From the NCBI RefSeq assembly GCF_017814435.1, contig NZ_JAGJCB010000022.1, positions 1 to 55,740 of the forward strand: a DNA stretch of 55,740 nucleotides, read 5' to 3'. The DNA is from Mariniflexile gromovii (GTDB taxonomy: Bacteria; Bacteroidota; Bacteroidia; Flavobacteriales; Flavobacteriaceae). Positions 1,507-39,267 of this stretch are shown here, piece after piece; within the stretch, counting starts at the first letter, position 1; each line of letters begins with the position of its first letter. The notes under the pieces were generated by a model. That model had not been told where the DNA came from and made no database searches. It saw nothing but the letters and a program-made list of their open reading frames with translations. The translations under genes and the position numbers were made by a program.

Positions 1507-4137
1507 ATGCATAAACCAATCTCACTTATCATATTTTTTTTAGCATTACTAAGTTTTTCACAAGCAACCAGCGGCCCAGCATACATAAAACAAGCTCTAA
1601 CAACTAGCGGCGTTTATAACGCCCCTAGTTTTGAGTTCACCACAGCTTATGATGCCTACAACACCGTTTCTGTTAACGGTACTATTCGTGGCTTATTCTA
1701 CCAAGGACTACCTTATACGCAAGCCGTAAATAGCAATAACGAAACAAAAATATTTGCTTGGTACGGGGAACCTGCGGGACTCTCTCCTGGCGACAAAGTT
1801 CCTGCTGTAATTTTAGTGCACGGCGGTGGCGGTAGAGCTTACACTGAGTGGGTAGCAGAATGGGTTAATAGAGGCTATATCGCAATTGCCATGTCTAATA
1901 GAGGTACCACCCCTGATGATTCAGCTGCTTTTCAATATGCAGGACCAAGTCAACCCGTGTTTTTTTCAGACAACGATGGCCCGTTACAAGATCAATGGTT
2001 TTATCATGCTATTGCAAATGCCATGTTATCCAACAGTTTACTTAGAAATGATGCCTTTACCACTCATGTCGATAAAAATAATATTGGAATCACCGGCATT
2101 TCTTGGGGAGGTATAATTAATACGGTTATAGCTGGCATAGATGAACGTTTAGATTTTGTAATTCCTGTTTATGGCTGCGGATTTTTGTACGACTCACCTG
2201 TTTACTCTAAGCAGTTTGCAAGTATGAGTAAATCGGCTCAAGATTTTTATCTTGAAAACTGGGAACCTTCATTATATACGCCTTTACACTCGGCACCTAT
2301 GTTATTTGTAAACGGTAATAAAGATTTACAGTTTACCTTGAATATTTTCGGAAAAACCTATGAAACATCCAACAGCCCAGAGAAATTTCTACGCATACAA
2401 GACCTAATGGGTCACGGTCATGGAGCAGGAAGAAGACCTGAAGAAATTTATGATTTTGCAGATTATGTAACGGGCTTAGCCCCTAATGCTGTAAAACCAT
2501 TAGAATTTACTTCAGAACAAATAGATTCTGATAAAAACATAAGCTATAGTTTTAATTTTGATGGCCCAGTTGATGAAGCACTTTTGTTTTACACTAAAGA
2601 CACTTTGCAATGGGGAAAAACAGACGATAAATATTTATGGCTAACAAAAACTGCAAACCTAAATAAATCAAGCAATTCAGGATTAATTACTACAACAGTT
2701 CCCGAAGATGCCCAAGCCTACTACGTAAATGTAAATAATACCACTGATGGATTAATGTACAGCTCGGTTATTAAATACGCTATTAGAGATTATGAATGGT
2801 ATAATTATGAAACAGCTGTATTTAATACACGAATTGATAATTCTTCAGGAGGTACTTTTACAGACAACACAACCAATCCCAATACCTCTGGCATAAACCC
2901 AAGTACTCATGTTGGTAAGTTTGAAAGAACATCGGGAGATGCTAAAATTGTTTTTAATTTAACAAAGAACATCACTGATGTTTCAATTTTCAAACAAAAA
3001 ATTAAATTATATATAAATAACCCAGATTTAGCTTCTATTTCAAATAATAAAGTACGCCTGTATTTATCTAATTCTGAAATAGATTACAAAACAAGTAGTT
3101 TATATGAAGACATTACTCTAAATTCTGGTGCGCAATGGGTAGATTACAACTTTGATTTCACAAACAAAACTGTGCCTTCTAACATTCTATCGGAAGGTGG
3201 TTTTAATCAAGTTATTTTGGTTTTTGCTCCAGATGACACCACTTCAACAGGTATCATTTATTATTTTGATGATTTGCGAGGAACCATAAACCAACCTGAA
3301 TATGTAGCACCAGAACCATATTATGATTGGTTGAATTACGGTAAAGAGAACGCCGTTGAAGAAATTAATTACGCAAGTAGTGTTGGCGGAAACTATACAA
3401 AAACATATAATGTTTCATTAGATGCCGGAGTTACAAATAGTGGATCTGCTTCAGGGTTGGCTACAAAATTCACTAAAACCACCGAGAACAGTTGGAAATT
3501 TGCCCAAATACGCTATGATTTTGAAGATGGGATCATTAACAACACCCAAAGCATCACCTTTAAACTAAAAGCTTTAATTAAACCTGAAACTATTTCAGAA
3601 ATAAATATTCTTAATGAAGATAGCCGATCGGTAAGCATCTATCTACAAGACAGATTAGGGGGAACTAATTTGAATCAAAAATTTGTAAAAGCATATTTTA
3701 CTCAAACAAATGCTTGGGAAACCTTAGAGTTTACCTTCACCGCATCCGATTTAAATTATTATGACAGGCTCGTAATTATGGTAGCTTCAGGTCTTACATA
3801 TCCTGTTGATGAAGACGGAAAGGAGTTAACAAACGAAGACTTAACCTATTATTTTGAGTCTTTAACTGCAAACGAAAATATAAATTCAACCTTATCTACC
3901 GAGGTTTCTTTAAAGTCTCCTGAAAGACTAATGCTATACCCAAATCCCGTAAATAAAACTTTACGAATTAATAAGGTCGTAGAAGAGGCAGAAATACTAA
4001 ACCAGTTAGGACAAAAAGTCCATTCTTTTAAAAACACCGATAACTTTAACGTAATCAACTTAAAAAATGGGCTATACTTTTTAAAAGTTAACCTAAAAAA
4101 TAAGCCTACTCAAGTTTATCGTTTTATAAAAAAATAA
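1507..4137 (+). CDS. T9SS-secreted alpha/beta-hydrolase (esterase-like) with two sandwich modules
   Basis: This 876-residue protein has a signal peptide (about 1-20) and an N-terminal alpha/beta-hydrolase domain. The oxyanion region is HGGGG (from H105), the nucleophile elbow is GISWGG with S199, the likely acid is D273 (NGNKD) and the likely base is H303 or H305 (GHGHG). Two related beta-sandwich modules follow at about 428-600 and 605-800. Each starts with a tyrosine/tryptophan-rich YEWYNY or YYDWLNY segment and ends with YYFDDL or YYFESL. A T9SS sorting domain (about 808-876, LYPNP) ends the protein. It probably removes ester groups such as acetyl from the polysaccharide outside the cell, with the sandwich modules binding glycan. 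The substrate is not readable from sequence; a peptidase-S15-like role is the main alternative. Confidence 0.75.
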   Translation: MHKPISLIIFFLALLSFSQATSGPAYIKQALTTSGVYNAPSFEFTTAYDAYNTVSVNGTIRGLFYQGLPYTQAVNSNNETKIFAWYGEPAGLSPGDKVPAVILVHGGGGRAYTEWVAEWVNRGYIAIAMSNRGTTPDDSAAFQYAGPSQPVFFSDNDGPLQDQWFYHAIANAMLSNSLLRNDAFTTHVDKNNIGITGISWGGIINTVIAGIDERLDFVIPVYGCGFLYDSPVYSKQFASMSKSAQDFYLENWEPSLYTPLHSAPMLFVNGNKDLQFTLNIFGKTYETSNSPEKFLRIQDLMGHGHGAGRRPEEIYDFADYVTGLAPNAVKPLEFTSEQIDSDKNISYSFNFDGPVDEALLFYTKDTLQWGKTDDKYLWLTKTANLNKSSNSGLITTTVPEDAQAYYVNVNNTTDGLMYSSVIKYAIRDYEWYNYETAVFNTRIDNSSGGTFTDNTTNPNTSGINPSTHVGKFERTSGDAKIVFNLTKNITDVSIFKQKIKLYINNPDLASISNNKVRLYLSNSEIDYKTSSLYEDITLNSGAQWVDYNFDFTNKTVPSNILSEGGFNQVILVFAPDDTTSTGIIYYFDDLRGTINQPEYVAPEPYYDWLNYGKENAVEEINYASSVGGNYTKTYNVSLDAGVTNSGSASGLATKFTKTTENSWKFAQIRYDFEDGIINNTQSITFKLKALIKPETISEINILNEDSRSVSIYLQDRLGGTNLNQKFVKAYFTQTNAWETLEFTFTASDLNYYDRLVIMVASGLTYPVDEDGKELTNEDLTYYFESLTANENINSTLSTEVSLKSPERLMLYPNPVNKTLRINKVVEEAEILNQLGQKVHSFKNTDNFNVINLKNGLYFLKVNLKNKPTQVYRFIKK

Positions 4138-4308: not shown

Positions 4309-6525
4309 ATGAAAAAAATAATTCTAAACGCCTTGTTTGTAGTGCTATCTATACCCCTTGTGGCACAAAATGTATTGGAAATGAATCCTGAAAATGCCCA
4401 GGATAATGCTTTTTTTAAATTCATTCCTTCTATAGATTATAACAGTATTCTGGAGCAAAATGGTACAACAAATTTTACAACCAGCTACTCGCCTTCTGGA
4501 AGTTATTGGCTAGACCCAACAGAAGCAGACGAACAACATGTGTATCTAGCAAAACTTGAACACCAAGCATCTACACCAGAAAATTCATGGCAGTTAAGAA
4601 TTGGTCAAGGCGGACAAATTTATTCTTTTAAAAGTGCCTATGGAGAAGGTATTCCTCCTCAATCTAAAGAACACTCAACATGGAATGATGAAGTTTGGCA
4701 GCCTGTTTCTGTATCAACTTTAAATAATAGAGATTTTACTTCGGCATTTTATTTTATTCATGGCGCCGGAGCCTATAATAATGATGGTATAGAGAAAACC
4801 TGGTACAGTCCATTAATGGCTTCTTACTATGATGCTTTCGATAAATCGTATGCTGTTACCAATTGGGGCGCTCAAGCACATATACCATCTTTGTATAAAT
4901 CTGAAATTTTATACACAACTAAATATCGAGAAATTGGAGAAGGTGTGCTAGAAGTTACTTATTTCATTCAAAATTTTGGAGATGAACCTATGGTTCACAT
5001 CAATGCACCTTGGGGAGGTGTTCGCGCTTCCAGTTTACGCGGTAAATTTGTAGGCTTACCCGACGGAAGTATTGAAATTTCGGATGGAAACACAGGAACT
5101 ACTGTTGATACTAGAGATATTGATGAAACCGGTGGTTATGTGATATGGTCTGAAAACACTACTAATAGCACAGCAGCTTCGATGGGAATTGTATTTGGAA
5201 ACAAACTTAAAACAGCCGAGTTGACCAATCATGGTTTACGAAATGTGTTTTTCAGACTTGGTCAAGTTGGTGGCGATACAAACCCAAGAGATTATACTTT
5301 ATTTACCGTTATTGCTCAATTAGACATAAAACGCGGCGAAACGTTCTATTACAGAACCTACTATATAAATGGAACAAGAGATTTTGTTCAAGAAAAAGGG
5401 AATCTATTAGCACCATATAGCGATTATGGTTTTATTGAGCCTAATGCCGATGAAACACCAAAAACAACAATATCAGCTTCCGATTCGGACGGTGGACTCT
5501 CAAAAACAATTTACTTAAACACAAGTTTCACAAAGGATATGCTACCTATTTTTCTTATGAAAAATACAGCAACCGGAAAAACATACATTTCCCCAGACCC
5601 GTATTACAATGTAACAACTCAACCTTTGGAAAACCCTTATAATGAAGGTGATCCTGAATATGAAACCTACCAAAATAGATTTGTATATAAACTTCATGAA
5701 AGCCCAATAGAATATGTGCGACTTTTAGGATATGCGTTTGATAAGGATATGTCATCTAACCCTTCTTTCTCGCTACTTGATGATTTAATTTTAGACAATG
5801 CTAAAGTTATTCTAACAGCTCCATACCTCAACAAAATATGGGTTCAAACTACAGATTCTCCTATCACCGCAACTAATCTCGCCCTAGATGGAGTTGCAAC
5901 GCAGTCCTCTACCCTACACGATGCCGAAGCCACTAGAGCCATAGATGGCAATACAAATGGAGCATTTTCTGAAGGATCCGTAACACATACAGGATCTGAT
6001 CCAGAAACGTATTGGCAGGTAGAATTAGATGCTGAATATGCTATTGGGATTATCAATATTTTTGGTCGCACAGACAGTTGTTGTTTAGAGCGTCTTTCAA
6101 ATTTTACTGTTTTAGTTTATGATGCCGATGGGCAATTAACCTATTCTGAAACTTTTGATGCTTATCCAGATCCTTCAGTAACCTCTAATGCAAACGGTGT
6201 TCAAGGTAAAATAATAAAAGTTCGTAATAACACAGGCTCAACATTATCCTTAGCAGAAGTACAGGTTTTTGAAGCATTAAAACTGTCGGTTACCTCACCA
6301 GAAAAGAACATAAATTTCTTTCCTAACCCCGTAAAAACCTCTTTCAAAATAAATAAAAAAAATATTCATAACATTAATATATACGACGTCTCAGGAAAAT
6401 TAGTTAAAAACTTTGACACCCCACAACACGAGTATATCATCACTAATTTAAAGCCGGGAATATACTTTGCAAAAACAATAGATACCCAAGGAAAAACCGC
6501 TATTAATCGATTAATAAAGTTATAG
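4309..6525 (+). CDS. T9SS-secreted protein with unrecognised N-terminal domain and fucolectin-like domain
   Basis: The 738 residues comprise a signal peptide (about 1-20), a large beta-rich region (about 21-515) that I cannot assign to a family, a discoidin/F5-8C fold domain (about 521-660) and a T9SS sorting domain (about 668-738, FFPNPV). The discoidin domain is of fucolectin type: it begins NLALDGVATQSST, has AIDGN, and carries RTDSCCLER at R587-R595, with H560 upstream. This resembles the His/Arg/Arg fucose site and adjacent cysteine pair of eel fucolectin (CBM47-like), with slightly different spacing. The N-terminal region is rich in Trp, Tyr, Asp and Glu (for example WNDEVWQPV and NAPWGGVR), as expected of a carbohydrate-active enzyme. 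I infer an extracellular fucan-active enzyme or binding protein; catalysis is unproven. Confidence 0.65.
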   Translation: MKKIILNALFVVLSIPLVAQNVLEMNPENAQDNAFFKFIPSIDYNSILEQNGTTNFTTSYSPSGSYWLDPTEADEQHVYLAKLEHQASTPENSWQLRIGQGGQIYSFKSAYGEGIPPQSKEHSTWNDEVWQPVSVSTLNNRDFTSAFYFIHGAGAYNNDGIEKTWYSPLMASYYDAFDKSYAVTNWGAQAHIPSLYKSEILYTTKYREIGEGVLEVTYFIQNFGDEPMVHINAPWGGVRASSLRGKFVGLPDGSIEISDGNTGTTVDTRDIDETGGYVIWSENTTNSTAASMGIVFGNKLKTAELTNHGLRNVFFRLGQVGGDTNPRDYTLFTVIAQLDIKRGETFYYRTYYINGTRDFVQEKGNLLAPYSDYGFIEPNADETPKTTISASDSDGGLSKTIYLNTSFTKDMLPIFLMKNTATGKTYISPDPYYNVTTQPLENPYNEGDPEYETYQNRFVYKLHESPIEYVRLLGYAFDKDMSSNPSFSLLDDLILDNAKVILTAPYLNKIWVQTTDSPITATNLALDGVATQSSTLHDAEATRAIDGNTNGAFSEGSVTHTGSDPETYWQVELDAEYAIGIINIFGRTDSCCLERLSNFTVLVYDADGQLTYSETFDAYPDPSVTSNANGVQGKIIKVRNNTGSTLSLAEVQVFEALKLSVTSPEKNINFFPNPVKTSFKINKKNIHNINIYDVSGKLVKNFDTPQHEYIITNLKPGIYFAKTIDTQGKTAINRLIKL

Positions 6526-6741: not shown

Positions 6742-7089
6742 ATGAAAAAAATGAAAAAAAGTTTATTCACATTAGTATTAGGATTATTAGTTAGTATTGC
6801 TACTATGGCACAATCTAATAACGATCGACGTGCAGAAAGAATTACACAACAAGCTTTAACAAAAATAGAAGCATCATTAACTTTAAAAGAAGAAGAGAAA
6901 AAAACTTTTGAAGCTTTGAAAAAGGAATCACTGTTTAAACATTTTGAAATTGCAGATGAGTACAAAACGAAAGATCCTGAAATGTTTAAACAAAAAATAA
7001 AAGAGAACAACGAAAAGTTTAATGAATCGATGTTTAAAGCTTTTGGTAAAGCTAGAGCTAGAGAAATAATGGCTACAATGAAAAACTAA
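6742..7089 (+). CDS. Small secreted helical protein of unknown function
   Basis: The 115-residue protein has a signal peptide (about 1-23, ending TMAQ). The mature part is about 90 residues, highly charged and almost certainly all helical, with many Lys/Glu and no cysteine. Its size and helical character recall Spy/CpxP-like periplasmic proteins seen in flavobacteria, but no LTxxQ motif is visible, so I do not assign that family. It lies between two genes for T9SS-secreted proteins but has no sorting domain, so a periplasmic location is likely. An alternative start at the second methionine (residue 4) would also fit. Confidence 0.65.
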   Translation: MKKMKKSLFTLVLGLLVSIATMAQSNNDRRAERITQQALTKIEASLTLKEEEKKTFEALKKESLFKHFEIADEYKTKDPEMFKQKIKENNEKFNESMFKAFGKARAREIMATMKN

Positions 7090-7230: not shown

Positions 7231-9426
7231 ATGAAAAAAATATTACTTGCCATTCTTTTTATTTCGATGTTACTAACCAACAAATCTATCGCACAAGAAT
7301 CATTGCAAGGTTCATGGGGTGTTCGATTAATTGTAAGTGGTGGTTCCAAATTGGATAATAATGCAGCTGATGATGACTGGGTTACAGGTGCACAGGAAAT
7401 TGTAGATGAACTGCCATCAGCTGGTCATGTAATTACTAATTTTACACATCCTGCCCATGGTTATCATTTTACCTTAAGAACTAATGCTAATGTAGATATT
7501 GCCAACGAAATTCATCCTGATTTTGTACCTTCACTTGAAAATGAACAAATTATTTTAGATGTTATAAACGTCTTAAAAAATGGAGGAAAAAAAGTAATTC
7601 TTTACATTGCAACAGATGGTCCTTCGGCACGAGGAGGCACACCTGACAACGCTACATATGAAGCTGCTTGGGCTAACTACTATAACACCAAGTTTGGTGG
7701 AGATGAAGGAGCCGCTTGGCGAAATTTAGCTAGAGGTTTTGCAGAACGATTTAAAGGATTGGCAGATGGTTACTGGTTAGATCATACAGGAAGTTGTCCA
7801 GGAGGAATCGTAAATTTTATAGCCATGTTAAAAGATGTAGATCCTACCTTGAGTATTACCGGTAACGGTGTTGAAGAAAATGTAACAGATTATGATGACT
7901 ATTTTGAATATCCTGATGGTACTATTATACAAGTTGATACAGATGGATTAAATGATACAGATCTGAGAAAATATAGAATAAAAAGCTTCAATACCTTCTC
8001 ACCCTACTTAGAATTTACTTCGGGGCATCCAACACCTTTAGCACAGGGTGCACCACCTAACTCATGGGCTTACGAAGAATTTACATTTCCAGAAATAATT
8101 GCTGTATCAACTTATTTCAATCCCGATACAGACCTTGTTAAGCATGCTTGGATACCAATGAGACAAAATTGGACAAATAGCAGTTTTCCATTGTTGTTTG
8201 AAGTAGAGCAAGCCTACAGATTTGTACGTACGTTAACAGATGGTAACTGCGCCATAACCTGGGGAAATACACAAACCGATGGTAAAATTACGCCAGAGGA
8301 AATGAGTATTATGAAAGAAATAGATTCGAGATTGCAAATGTCTCCAATGCCCGATTACGTTCCTTATTCAAGACCAGAAGGTGCACTTTTAGTTGGAGAA
8401 TCAGCAAATAATCGTTATCAACTTATCTTTGCTGATCAACTTCCAGACAAAGAGCTTGGTGACTCTGACATTCCAACCGGAGCTTTAGCAAGTTCTGGAT
8501 TACCGGTTACCACGACTAGCTCAGATACATCTGTTGCTACAATTATAAACAATCAAATTCATATTGTAGGTATTGGAACTACAACAATAACCCACTCACA
8601 AGCTGGTAATTCTGAGTATAATGCAGCAGTAAATGTTTCTAGAACTTTAACTGTTGTAGAAGAACTTAATGCAATTACCGCTCAAGTTATAGTAACTTCA
8701 GATGAAGGAGATCAGAGATTTGCTTTAAATGAAACACTAAACCCTACGATTACTCCTGGTTTGCTAGGTGTATTTTCTACTAATACAACGTACACACAAC
8801 TAAGAGGAACTAATACAGTATTAGATAATATTAGTGGCAAATTAGAATTTTATGTGCAAAGTGATTCAGGCAATAAAACAGGGCATATAGCTTTTGATTT
8901 TAGAACCATTGTCGGTACACAAGCAACTGTTACCGTTACTGTTGAAGGTTTATCTCCACAAGTTTATAATGTGGTAAACACAAATACGGACATATTGATA
9001 AATTCTGTAGGTATATATGATGAATATCGCCTTGATTTTACTAATGCTGTTAATTTTAGTAATACCCCTATTAAAGTTTCCATAGAAGTTAACGATTTAG
9101 ACCAAGGCAGTGCAACAACTGTTACGGCAGCTAGGTTTTATAATTTTTATTATACAAACCAACAGGGATTATCAACCAACACCCATATTAAAAAAAACAA
9201 AACCTTTAAGGTGAGCCCTAATCCTGTTCAACATGGTTTTTCTCTTGTAGGAGATTTTAATGAAGATATTGAGCAAATAGAAATTTTTAATATGGCAGGA
9301 GTCTTAGTAAAAACATTAAAAGGCCAAACAACTAATTATAATATAAGCGACTTGTCCCCTGGCCTGTATTTAGCTAAAGCTAAAACTGTAAATCAAATAA
9401 CAGTAGTGAAATTAATAAAGGAATAA
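7231..9426 (+). CDS. T9SS-secreted endo-fucanase-like glycoside hydrolase (GH107-like)
   Basis: The 731-residue protein has a signal peptide (about 1-21), a TIM-barrel-like catalytic domain (about 25-390), an Ig-like region (about 395-485), a beta-module (about 513-645) shared with the protein at 594-1367, and a T9SS sorting domain (about 660-731). The best catalytic candidates are D184 in DGYWLDHTG (end of a barrel strand) and H266 in TSGHPTP. GH107 endo-alpha-1,4-L-fucanases use an Asp nucleophile and a His acid/base in this order, a barrel related to GH29, and Ig-like and T9SS tails. With the fucosidase and sulfatase context, I infer cleavage of sulfated fucan outside the cell. The exact family number is not certain; another endo-fucanase family is the main alternative. 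Confidence 0.6.
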   Translation: MKKILLAILFISMLLTNKSIAQESLQGSWGVRLIVSGGSKLDNNAADDDWVTGAQEIVDELPSAGHVITNFTHPAHGYHFTLRTNANVDIANEIHPDFVPSLENEQIILDVINVLKNGGKKVILYIATDGPSARGGTPDNATYEAAWANYYNTKFGGDEGAAWRNLARGFAERFKGLADGYWLDHTGSCPGGIVNFIAMLKDVDPTLSITGNGVEENVTDYDDYFEYPDGTIIQVDTDGLNDTDLRKYRIKSFNTFSPYLEFTSGHPTPLAQGAPPNSWAYEEFTFPEIIAVSTYFNPDTDLVKHAWIPMRQNWTNSSFPLLFEVEQAYRFVRTLTDGNCAITWGNTQTDGKITPEEMSIMKEIDSRLQMSPMPDYVPYSRPEGALLVGESANNRYQLIFADQLPDKELGDSDIPTGALASSGLPVTTTSSDTSVATIINNQIHIVGIGTTTITHSQAGNSEYNAAVNVSRTLTVVEELNAITAQVIVTSDEGDQRFALNETLNPTITPGLLGVFSTNTTYTQLRGTNTVLDNISGKLEFYVQSDSGNKTGHIAFDFRTIVGTQATVTVTVEGLSPQVYNVVNTNTDILINSVGIYDEYRLDFTNAVNFSNTPIKVSIEVNDLDQGSATTVTAARFYNFYYTNQQGLSTNTHIKKNKTFKVSPNPVQHGFSLVGDFNEDIEQIEIFNMAGVLVKTLKGQTTNYNISDLSPGLYLAKAKTVNQITVVKLIKE

Positions 9427-28216: not shown

Positions 28217-29389
28217 TTATTTCCAGTTTAATTGGGCCGTTTTATTTTTAATATCTAATACAACATCTAAATACTCGAAAGACCTCGTGTAGACATAGCC
28301 TTCTTTTTTTGCATAACCTTTAGGAGCGCCTAATCTTTTTTGATATTGAGGAAATGTTTTTAACCAAACAGATGATCTTTCAATACCAAAGCCATCATGA
28401 GGATAGATGTAGCTGTGCTTTTCTGCGCACACCAAGAAAATAGCTAAAATATAATCCAGACGTTTTGTTAAATCTGAATTGGCATTTACTTTTTCTCTTA
28501 CATCGTCAATTCCTGCAACTGCATTTTTTGAAGCTTGCCCTATGCCAATTGTCATGGCAATAATTTCACCTTCTCTTGCCGATTTTTGCACGGCTTCAAT
28601 CCCTTTGGCCAAATAATCTTCATAGGTCATTCCAAAGTTTTCATGTTCAAACCCCTCAAGATAAGTACCATCAAAATATTTTAAATACCCTCGGCCTACA
28701 TCTTTAAACTCTGGGCGAACACGCAAAATATTAGCAAGCAAAACATTATCTGATCCAAGCTGAGTATTTAAATCCTCCATCATGGTAACATAGCCCGCTT
28801 GAATATCCTTTTGTTTTTCTGCACCAACTCTACTCTCAAAAAAGCCTGGAACCAATACTTTTATATTGGCATCCATAAACACGCCATCTATATAAGGACT
28901 GCTAGTTACTTCAGTCACATTATCCAACCAATACTTGCGCACATAGTCTTTTGAAATATCAAAAAAACCTGTTTTTTTATTAGGCATTAACGCTTTTTTT
29001 CCGTTTTCATCTACCAAAAGGGCATCACGGTTTTTTCTTATAAAGTAATCATCATCCTTATAACCATCCCAATTGATAATCACATTTTTATAATATAATA
29101 TGGTAGCGTTAGGGTTTAATTTTTTAACCGCTTTGGCTGCAACAATTGTCCCATTTTCGGTAGAACCATAAGTTTTACTTCCTGTGGTTTTCTCGAAAGT
29201 AATTAATGGGAATTTTGACAAATAGTTTATTTCTTCATCTGTAAAAGCTGTAGCCTTTCTAAGATGCATATACAAGGGCATGGTGTCCCATGAAAATTCT
29301 GGTAATTTTTTGTTTTGCGCATTACCTTCTATGTCAAAAAAGACCGCTACAAGTAAAAACATATACACTTTATAGTTCATAATATGCAT
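28217..29389 (-). CDS. GH168-like TIM-barrel protein, paralogue of 38125-39267
   Basis: The 390-residue protein has a signal peptide (about 1-24). Met4 (29380) is an equally good start; Met1 begins 5 bases after the upstream stop. The barrel-like domain has FSWDTMPLY near the start, DGVFMDA (D173) and FDGTYLEGFEH (D240, E245). The paralogue at 38125-39267 conserves all three residues. D173 and E245 are the best catalytic pair, 72 residues apart. Endo-1,3-fucanases of GH168 are retaining enzymes of about this size with an Asp/Glu pair and occur in sulfated-fucan loci, hence my tentative label. An uncharacterised DUF-type glycosidase is the alternative. It has no T9SS tail, so it probably acts in the periplasm on imported oligosaccharides. 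Confidence 0.55.
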   Translation of the reverse strand: MHIMNYKVYMFLLVAVFFDIEGNAQNKKLPEFSWDTMPLYMHLRKATAFTDEEINYLSKFPLITFEKTTGSKTYGSTENGTIVAAKAVKKLNPNATILYYKNVIINWDGYKDDDYFIRKNRDALLVDENGKKALMPNKKTGFFDISKDYVRKYWLDNVTEVTSSPYIDGVFMDANIKVLVPGFFESRVGAEKQKDIQAGYVTMMEDLNTQLGSDNVLLANILRVRPEFKDVGRGYLKYFDGTYLEGFEHENFGMTYEDYLAKGIEAVQKSAREGEIIAMTIGIGQASKNAVAGIDDVREKVNANSDLTKRLDYILAIFLVCAEKHSYIYPHDGFGIERSSVWLKTFPQYQKRLGAPKGYAKKEGYVYTRSFEYLDVVLDIKNKTAQLNWK

Positions 29390-36305: not shown

Positions 36306-38120
36306 ATGATAATTACAATAATTAAAAAAAATCTACTAATAGTTGCTACAGCACTGTGTGTAGCTAATGCATCATTCTCCCAAGTTAAAAAAGACAAAGG
36401 CATGGAAGAAATGTGGGGAGAAACAAAAGTTTCAGTAGACGCATTAAAAAATGGAAAAGCAAAGTTCTTTGACGAAAGTAATTTTGGAATGTTTATTCAC
36501 TGGGGATTATTTTCAAATTTAGGCGGCGTATGGAATGGTAAAACCTATTATGGCATTGGTGAATGGATTATGAATCCAAGAATGGCAGGAATCCCTGTTA
36601 AAGATTATAAGCAGATTGCAAAAACGTTTAATCCAACTGGTTTTGATGCTAAAAAAATAGCACAATTGGCCAAAGATGCTGGCATGAAATACATTGTGAT
36701 TACAAGTAAACATCATGAAGGTTTTGCGATGTTCGACTCCAAAGTAAGTGATTTTAATATTGTAGATGCCACACCTTTTGGAAGAGACCCCATGCATGAG
36801 TTGGCTGATGCTTGCCATGATTTAGGTTTAGGTTTTGGATTTTATTATTCACACAACCAAGATTGGACCGCTCCAGGAGGCACCAGAGGTCCTGAAGTTG
36901 ATAAAAAAGGTAAAAAAACTACTTTTAAGGATTATTTTTATAACAAGTGTAAACCACAGGTAAAAGAAATTTGTACAAATTATGGAGATATAGATTTTGT
37001 ATGGTTTGATACCCCAGGAGATATGCCAAAGAAATATGTTGTAGAATTGGCTGATATGGTACGAGAATTACAGCCAAAAGCCATGATGTGTAGCCGAGTT
37101 GGCTATGGTTTGGGCGACTATGCAAGTGTGGGTGATATGGAAGTGCCAACTAAGCGTATAGAAGGCTTATGGGAAACTTGCGACACCAATAACGACTCTT
37201 GGTCTTACGCCTGGTATGATAATAATTTTAAAAGCCCAAAAATAATATTATCTAGACTGGTAGAGACCGTAGCAAGAGGAGGCTCTTATTTATTTAATGT
37301 AGGACCTAATAACCTAGGCGAGATTCCTGAAATTGGTGTTGAATTTTTAAGAGCAACAGGTAAATGGCTTAAAAAATACCCACAAGTGGTATATGATGCA
37401 GATCCTTCACCATGGGATTATAAATTACCATGGGGCGATGTAACTTCAAAAGGAAATTCATTGTATTTAGCCGTTTCAAATTGGCCAACAGACGGAAAAT
37501 TATACTTACCAGGTTTAGAAACTAAAATAGAATCTGCAAAAATATTAAACCCTAACGGGAACGATGTTACCGTGCATTATAAAGAAGACAAAAACGAATG
37601 GGCTATTTTTGATGTGCCTTTTAAAGCTCCAGATGATTTGATCTCTGTTATCGAATTAAAGTTTAAAGAAGGGTCAAAAATAATTGCTAAAGATGAAGCC
37701 TTAGGTATTTACCCTAATACGGATACAGAACTTATTACAGAGTTTGGAGTAGTTGTAAATGCTGAACAAAAAAACATTCGATGGATGGAAAAGTTTGGCG
37801 AATGGAAACATGCTAATCAAGTTGGGAATTGGAAAGAAAATGGAAAAGTAACTTGGAAGGTTAATGTTCAAAAACCAGGTTATTACTATGTTAACCTTTG
37901 CTATGCAGGAGAAGACAGACTGGTATGGAAAGTTACTACAGATGAAAACGCTTTGTTACAAAACCAGCAAGCTGCTACCGACAAATATGTAAACTACACT
38001 ATGGGGATTCTAGAATTTAAAAAACCTGGTAAACACAGCATATCGGTTTCTCTTGTAGAGGGTAATAAAGCAACTTCTAGTTTAAAATCAATTGTATTCA
38101 CCCCTATTACTAATTACTAA
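36306..38120 (+). CDS. GH29 alpha-L-fucosidase with C-terminal accessory domain
   Basis: The 604-residue protein has a signal peptide (about 1-26). Barrel motifs are GMFIHWG (61-67), TSKHHEGFAMFDS (Glu replaces the usual Asp of HHDG, about 133-145), GFYYSHNQDW (178-187) and the nucleophile D235 in DFVWFDTPG. A C-terminal beta-domain of about 120 residues (about 480-604: ITEFGVVVNAEQ, GKVTWKVNVQKPGYYYVNL) resembles the tail of the GH29 lipoprotein at 41648-43477. It should release fucose from oligosaccharides in the periplasm. The next gene starts 4 bases after its stop, so the two are co-transcribed. Confidence 0.9.
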   Translation: MIITIIKKNLLIVATALCVANASFSQVKKDKGMEEMWGETKVSVDALKNGKAKFFDESNFGMFIHWGLFSNLGGVWNGKTYYGIGEWIMNPRMAGIPVKDYKQIAKTFNPTGFDAKKIAQLAKDAGMKYIVITSKHHEGFAMFDSKVSDFNIVDATPFGRDPMHELADACHDLGLGFGFYYSHNQDWTAPGGTRGPEVDKKGKKTTFKDYFYNKCKPQVKEICTNYGDIDFVWFDTPGDMPKKYVVELADMVRELQPKAMMCSRVGYGLGDYASVGDMEVPTKRIEGLWETCDTNNDSWSYAWYDNNFKSPKIILSRLVETVARGGSYLFNVGPNNLGEIPEIGVEFLRATGKWLKKYPQVVYDADPSPWDYKLPWGDVTSKGNSLYLAVSNWPTDGKLYLPGLETKIESAKILNPNGNDVTVHYKEDKNEWAIFDVPFKAPDDLISVIELKFKEGSKIIAKDEALGIYPNTDTELITEFGVVVNAEQKNIRWMEKFGEWKHANQVGNWKENGKVTWKVNVQKPGYYYVNLCYAGEDRLVWKVTTDENALLQNQQAATDKYVNYTMGILEFKKPGKHSISVSLVEGNKATSSLKSIVFTPITNY

Positions 38121-38124
38121 ACCT

Positions 38125-39267
38125 ATGCAGGCTTATTTAAAAAAAGTAATTATTTATGGTATAATATTTTTCGTTTGTTTTCAAACTTTTGGACAAACGA
38201 ATAATAATTTTCCGAAATTTAGCTGGGATAAGGTTCCCATCGCTTTTCATTTTGGAAAAGAAGGAAGCCTCAATAAAAAGGAAGCCAAATTTATTGCCTC
38301 ACATTCAAGTTTTATAGTTTTAGAAAAAGGACACGGTATTCCAGATTATAAAACCACTGAAACTGGAATTGAAGCAGATGCGAAAAAGTTAAAAAAATAC
38401 AATCCCAATATGAAAGTTATTTTTTATTGGAATGCGTTTCTAGATTATAATATGTACAAAGCTCATACGGTCTATGAAAACCATCCAGAGTGGTGGTTAA
38501 AAATGAAAAGTGGTGAATATGACCTGAAAAATGAAAAAACCAAACGCTATGATCTTTCTAATCCTGAAGTAAGGAATTGGTGGGTAGACATTGCTAAAAA
38601 TGAAGTTTTAAATGGTTCTACAGATGGTGTATTTATGGATGCTTTTATTCAAGTCGCTAGCAAAGCCAACATCAATATTTGGGGCCAAGAGAAATACGAT
38701 GCCATACAGCAAGGATTAAAAGATTTAGTTAAAGAAACTAGAATGGCATTAGGCAACGACAAGCTTATTGTTTATAACGGTATACGCTCTAAACCAAACG
38801 ATAATACAGGAAACAACTTTCCAGATTATACCGATGCAGTAATGATTGAGCATTTTGCCATCCTTAAAAGTCAATCCAAGGAAAGCATGTTACAAGACAT
38901 CCTTGAGATGGAGAAAGCAGGTAAAACAGGTAAAATAGTCGTATTTAAAGGTTGGCCTGGTTATGCTTGGTTTGATAATGATTTCATGGCGAAACCCCTA
39001 AAAGAAAAGCAAGAGATCTCAAGAAAAAACATCACATTTCCTTTAGCATCATTTTTGGCCGGAGCTCAAGAAAATTCATTTTTTATCTATAACTGGGGTT
39101 ACCGATTTAAACATGGCGTTTTAGACTGGTATCCTGAATTTGATAAACCTTTAGGCAAACCTTTACATGATATGAAAGTGAAAGGTTGGGAATTAACCCG
39201 AGATTTTGAACATGCTTCAATTTGGGTTAACTTAGAGACAAAAGAAGCTACAATCGACTGGAAATAA
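38125..39267 (+). CDS. GH168-like TIM-barrel protein, second paralogue
   Basis: I start at ATG 38125 (380 residues), not at an upstream ATG inside the GH29 gene, because MQAYLKKVIIYGIIFFVCF is a proper signal peptide and the gene then begins 4 bases after the preceding stop. The protein shares with 28217-29389 the FSWD start, DGVFMDA (D172 in this numbering) and D-AVMIEHF (E242). It also has KHGVLDWYPEFDKPLG and a C-terminal ATIDWK matching TAQLNWK. The conserved Asp and Glu are the likely catalytic pair. My tentative label is a GH168-type endo-fucanase or a related exo/oligo-fucosidase in the periplasm. The hairpin at 39313-39346 terminates the two-gene unit. Confidence 0.55.
   Translation: MQAYLKKVIIYGIIFFVCFQTFGQTNNNFPKFSWDKVPIAFHFGKEGSLNKKEAKFIASHSSFIVLEKGHGIPDYKTTETGIEADAKKLKKYNPNMKVIFYWNAFLDYNMYKAHTVYENHPEWWLKMKSGEYDLKNEKTKRYDLSNPEVRNWWVDIAKNEVLNGSTDGVFMDAFIQVASKANINIWGQEKYDAIQQGLKDLVKETRMALGNDKLIVYNGIRSKPNDNTGNNFPDYTDAVMIEHFAILKSQSKESMLQDILEMEKAGKTGKIVVFKGWPGYAWFDNDFMAKPLKEKQEISRKNITFPLASFLAGAQENSFFIYNWGYRFKHGVLDWYPEFDKPLGKPLHDMKVKGWELTRDFEHASIWVNLETKEATIDWK

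Follow-up and report, generated by a model that had tools for sequence, protein, structure and literature searches.

The single intact open reading frame at positions 4309-6525 of the forward strand (P0001; ATG to stop codon, 738 aa), located in a 55,740-nt stretch of DNA hereafter called the window, probably encodes a T9SS-exported GH174-type endo-alpha-1,3-L-fucanase that carries a CBM47/F-type lectin domain. The homologies, motifs, gene order and neighbourhood were observed directly, and we infer the activity, linkage, residue roles and binding of this protein from sequence comparison. The first-pass annotation had proposed a new fucan-active enzyme; homology agrees with a fucan-active hydrolase, but not with its novelty, since the family of the solved chains 8jd7 and 9k1g has already been described, and what is new here is only this GH174 member and its GH174-CBM47-T9SS layout.

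Domain architecture and export signals

Judged by eye from the translation, the N-terminus of P0001 looks like a Sec signal peptide (probable residues 1-20, positions 4309-4368, on the forward strand as are all features of the gene), and is followed by a putative GH174-type endo-1,3-fucanase region (residues 23-513, positions 4375-5847) delimited by phmmer against 8jd7 and 9k1g. The C-terminal part comprises a CBM47/F-type lectin domain (residues 523-655, positions 5875-6273; phmmer against 2j1r, Pfam PF22633 and PF00754), where the discoidin-type Pfam domain F5_F8_type_C_2 was detected at residues 543-638 (E 1e-12). Further along, residues 671-735 (positions 6319-6513) form a T9SS type A sorting domain that scored above the curated cut-offs both in Pfam (PF18962, E 3.7e-10, 40.4 bits vs. 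a cut-off of 27) and in NCBIfam (TIGR04183, 37.9 bits vs. a cut-off of 23), in agreement with the earlier reading of the protein as T9SS cargo. Two weak Pfam matches, to DUF3885 (E 0.0081) and AcrF2 (E 0.062), were below the cut-offs and were taken as chance. Neither promoter-like sites (23 vs. 24.0 in shuffled sequences) nor terminator-like sites (3 vs. 2.8) were above expectation.

Homology of the N-terminal region

The N-terminal ~500 residues had been described as matching no known family. This description held for Pfam and NCBIfam, where no model scored above its cut-off for residues 23-513, but not for solved structures: in a phmmer search of the PDB, the same residues aligned end-to-end with 8jd7_A, named 'endo-1,3-fucanase' (E 5.6e-180), sharing 278 of the 488 aligned positions (57%), a match that is far beyond chance. 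A second, distant chain, 9k1g ('endo-1.3-fucanase'), aligned with residues 52-358 (E 5e-37; 95 of 292 aligned positions identical, 32%), the rest of the chain lying outside the phmmer alignment. Eight distinct PDB chains matched P0001 at E <=10, two of them through the catalytic region and six through the C-terminal lectin domain; among these matches there were neither the GH107 chains 8bpd (Mef1) and 6m8n (P5AFcnA) nor the GH168 entries given in the table of a 2025 review (PMC11943901, available in excerpt), which gives no structure for GH187.

An N-terminal half belonging to a new enzyme class, an esterase or a lyase, had been left as an option, and the lack of an above-cut-off Pfam or NCBIfam match for residues 23-513 would agree with it. 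However, no esterase or lyase family was found for residues 21-515 in Pfam or NCBIfam at E <=0.1 or in the PDB at E <=10, and the full-length match is to a solved endo-1,3-fucanase instead, which makes this option hardly credible. The family matched by residues 21-515 is a catalytic one, and not a family of non-catalytic surface proteins.

According to the review excerpts (PMC11943901), Fun174A, a GH174 enzyme, has a beta-sandwich CBM that belongs to a new family. Because the match to 9k1g ends at residue 358, residues ~360-513 of P0001 could be a second binding module of this Fun174A-like type, a guess from a single alignment end. The predicted structure of full P0001, obtained from a three-row alignment (A1), had a pLDDT of 34.1 and a pTM of 0.24.

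Proposed active-site residues and family assignment

Fun174A of Wenyingzhuangia aestuarii, the founder of GH174, is reportedly the first member of that novel family and was published in 2023 (Liu et al., Carbohydr Polym 306:120591). The endo-fucanase families named in the review excerpts are GH107, GH168, GH174 and GH187 (PMC11943901), and an excerpt of a later paper indicates that GH141 also contains endo-fucanases (PMC12786026). The active site of Fun174A is tabulated in the same review excerpts as D119, E120 and E218 (PMC11943901). Residues D121, E122 and E220 of 8jd7 (HMMER numbering) correspond to these three at one constant offset of +2, from which we infer that 8jd7 is either Fun174A itself or a protein nearly identical to it and numbered slightly differently; a literature search, mostly outside subscription papers, found no paper naming 8JD7 together with a fucanase. 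Mapped through 8jd7, the proposed active-site equivalents in P0001 are D127 and E128 (positions 4687-4692) and E215 (positions 4951-4953). P0001 shares with 8jd7 the whole of residues 23-513 and all three tabulated residues, although the stretch from the second to the third is ~11 residues longer in 8jd7, and P0001 shares the same three acidic positions with 9k1g. The family name GH174 was given to P0001 on the basis of this residue mapping, and its catalytic domain is most likely a GH174 endo-alpha-1,3-L-fucanase.

Conservation was evaluated in an alignment of 13 rows (P0001, ten locus proteins and two PDB stretches), from which L012 and L013 were excluded as repeats of L009 and L010. The region does have conserved acidic residues and a conserved His: E75, E113 and H151 were invariant (13/13 rows). 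Position 127 was Asp in 12 of the 13 rows and Glu in L017, position 128 was Glu in eight, Asp in four and Ser in one, and position 215 was Glu in eight and Gln in five. The rows with Gln at the position of Fun174A E218 (L017, L018, L019, L020 and L021) are distant GH174-like proteins, with 23-36% identity to P0001, and this residue possibly reflects another specificity, no activity, or a position that is not essential. The fact that the E218 equivalent is not universal in distant relatives argues against all three residues being simply indispensable, and the role of E215 in P0001 is uncertain.

These substitutions, all in distant rows, together with the binding domain and the export tail that P0001 carries, would be compatible with a non-catalytic fucan-binding surface protein that retained the fold and lost the activity. 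All three tabulated residues are nevertheless kept in P0001, and likewise in its closest relatives L009 and L010, so that loss of activity appears very improbable in comparison with a catalytic GH174-type domain.

Predicted fucose-binding domain

Residues 523-655 matched the bacterial fucolectin-related chain 2j1r, which we take to represent family CBM47, with an E of 1.4e-21 as a separate query and of 2.4e-20 within the whole protein (phmmer). Six distinct PDB chains matched the lectin domain at E <=0.001, including 2j1r, 2j22, FBP32, Sm-hPAF (4gwi) and the eel lectin 1k12 (E 2e-10). The first-pass annotation had pointed to a C-terminal discoidin domain with RTDSCCLER and an upstream His, and both Pfam and the solved fucolectins bear this out: the motif, a predicted fucose site supported by alignment, extends from R587 to R595 (positions 6067-6093), and 26 residues separate Arg587 from His560 (positions 5986-5988), which in the alignment falls on the lectin-motif His. 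We assume that this His and the two Arg of the motif are the fucose-binding residues; the predicted fucose-site residues H560, R587 and R595 are all kept in P0001.

The domain and the motif residues His, Arg, Asp and Arg are shared with the CBM47/F-type lectins 2j1r, Sm-hPAF (4gwi), FBP32 and 1k12. Five residues lie between Asp589 and Arg595 in P0001; the Asp-to-Arg spacing of 2j1r is one residue shorter, whereas that of 4gwi (RGDGNVANR) is equal and aligns without gaps. Three further places in the genome carrying the window, on contigs C49, C28 and C50, matched the lectin domain. A CBM47 is described in the review excerpts as binding a sulfated fucan whose backbone is 1,3-linked (PMC11943901), in keeping with the linkage that the catalytic domain of P0001 is predicted to cleave.

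Genomic neighbourhood

The location of the gene among fucan-degrading functions, noted in the first-pass annotation, was recovered with Pfam, which assigned to the window seven sulfatases, five Alpha_L_fucos (GH29-type) proteins, SusC/SusD and a hybrid two-component regulator, in addition to a GH2 protein, a BD-FAE-type esterase, a SASA-type esterase, and GH43-like and GH5-like proteins. The locus also encodes two proteins assigned to GHL15 ('hypothetical glycosyl hydrolase family 15'), at 28217-29389 (reverse strand) and 38092-39267 (forward strand).

Two genes downstream of P0001, a homologue of GH107 endo-fucanases with a T9SS tail is encoded at positions 7231-9426 (forward strand), and belongs to the same family as Mef1 (8bpd, E 4e-169) and P5AFcnA (6m8n, E 1.5e-121), the two chains to which P0001 itself showed no match at E <=10. 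Its residues D184 and H266 occupy the positions of D187 and H270 in the 8bpd chain; the review table, in excerpt, lists 8BPD as Mef1 (GH107) and gives Asp187 together with a His that appears in print as 'His27' (PMC11943901). The catalytic Asp and His are kept in this homologue, and ~270 residues between its GH107 domain and its T9SS tail had no Pfam match above cut-off. Upstream of P0001, positions 1507-4137 (forward strand) encode a large, secreted acetyl-xylan-esterase-like hydrolase with a T9SS tail (PF05448, E 1.2e-8; PF18962; 6agq, E 1.5e-6), in which residues 73-222 correspond to an AXE1-type alpha/beta hydrolase and ~450 residues before the tail lack a Pfam match above cut-off.

Between the P0001 and GH107 genes lies the gene for a protein of 115 aa whose N-terminus is signal-like (positions 6742-7089, forward strand); this protein has no Pfam family above cut-off and is present as a single copy in its own genome. 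Matches to it at E <=0.001 were detected in 11 of 397 genomes sampled from the family, five with E <1e-15 and the other six weak. The five genomes with strong matches were all within the seven having a GH174-type match, and in four of them the small gene was <2 kb from the GH174 gene, the fifth (G323) having it on a separate contig. The match in genome G383 contains one internal TAA. The 115-aa protein may be a partner in fucan use.

Distribution of relatives

Residues 21-515 were matched at E <=0.001 in 7 of 397 genomes sampled from the family to which the window belongs and in 4 of 395 sampled from the class, its own genome being counted in both cases. Six short peptide patterns, used to scan a genome collection, picked out two named relatives, Tamlana sedimentorum at 86% and Flavicella sediminum at 81%. 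The gene order esterase, GH174, small protein and GH107 is kept in T. sedimentorum (79, 81, 75 and 84% identity, respectively), and in F. sediminum, within the 13.5 kb examined, the esterase-like and GH107 proteins matched through their tail regions only, so that neither of these two genes was detected there. The protein L014 shared 458 of 502 aligned positions (91%) with 8jd7. No stretch fitting the peptide patterns was detected in viral contigs, and among 72,556 plasmid records two matched, solely through query residues 523-661 and 495-654.

Proposed function and substrate

In the proposed mechanism, the N-terminal domain of P0001 would hydrolyse alpha-1,3 bonds within sulfated fucan chains by means of D127, E128 and perhaps E215, while the CBM47/F-type lectin domain would anchor the enzyme to the fucose-rich polysaccharide and the sorting domain would direct its export through the outer membrane. 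P0001 and the neighbouring GH107 enzyme would jointly yield oligosaccharides that SusC/SusD could import, and whose breakdown could be completed by the sulfatases and the GH29-type fucosidases that the locus encodes.

The bonds cleaved might differ from those of Fun174A, so that P0001 would be a GH174-type enzyme of shifted specificity, acting on another linkage or sulfation pattern such as that of brown-algal 1,3/1,4-fucoidan. In this regard, 43% of the aligned positions differ between P0001 and 8jd7, the neighbouring GH107 homologue is closest to Mef1, an alpha-1,4 enzyme, and cleavage specificities vary within GH174 according to the review excerpts (PMC11943901). Yet the two solved chains related to P0001 (57% and 32% identity) both bear the name endo-1,3-fucanase, and GH174 enzymes are termed endo-1,3 in those excerpts (PMC11943901); such a shift is therefore considered unlikely, and the endo-alpha-1,3-fucanase assignment is preferred. 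The natural substrate may be a fucoidan of brown algae or a fucan of animal (sea-cucumber) origin. Fun174A is described, in an excerpt of PMC10778895, as having no significant activity on brown-algal fucoidans; nothing in the window names which of the two substrates applies to P0001.

Characterised GH174 enzymes are few, four being listed in the table of the 2025 review, as excerpted (PMC11943901), and a narrow literature search, conducted mostly outside subscription papers, found no report of a GH174-CBM47 pairing, the review being the only paper there to mention both fucanases and CBM47. A rather doubtful suggestion, though a conceivable one, is that a GH174 enzyme with a CBM47, paired with a GH107 gene, acts on brown-algal fucoidan, unlike what is reported for Fun174A; if true, the substrate range of GH174 enzymes would be set in part by the binding module and the partner enzyme. 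The copies of Pfam and NCBIfam used here miss the GH174-type domain, so that enzymes of this kind look 'unassigned' in family scans. P0001 would add to the family a GH174 member with a CBM47 module, which would be useful for making defined fucan oligosaccharides.
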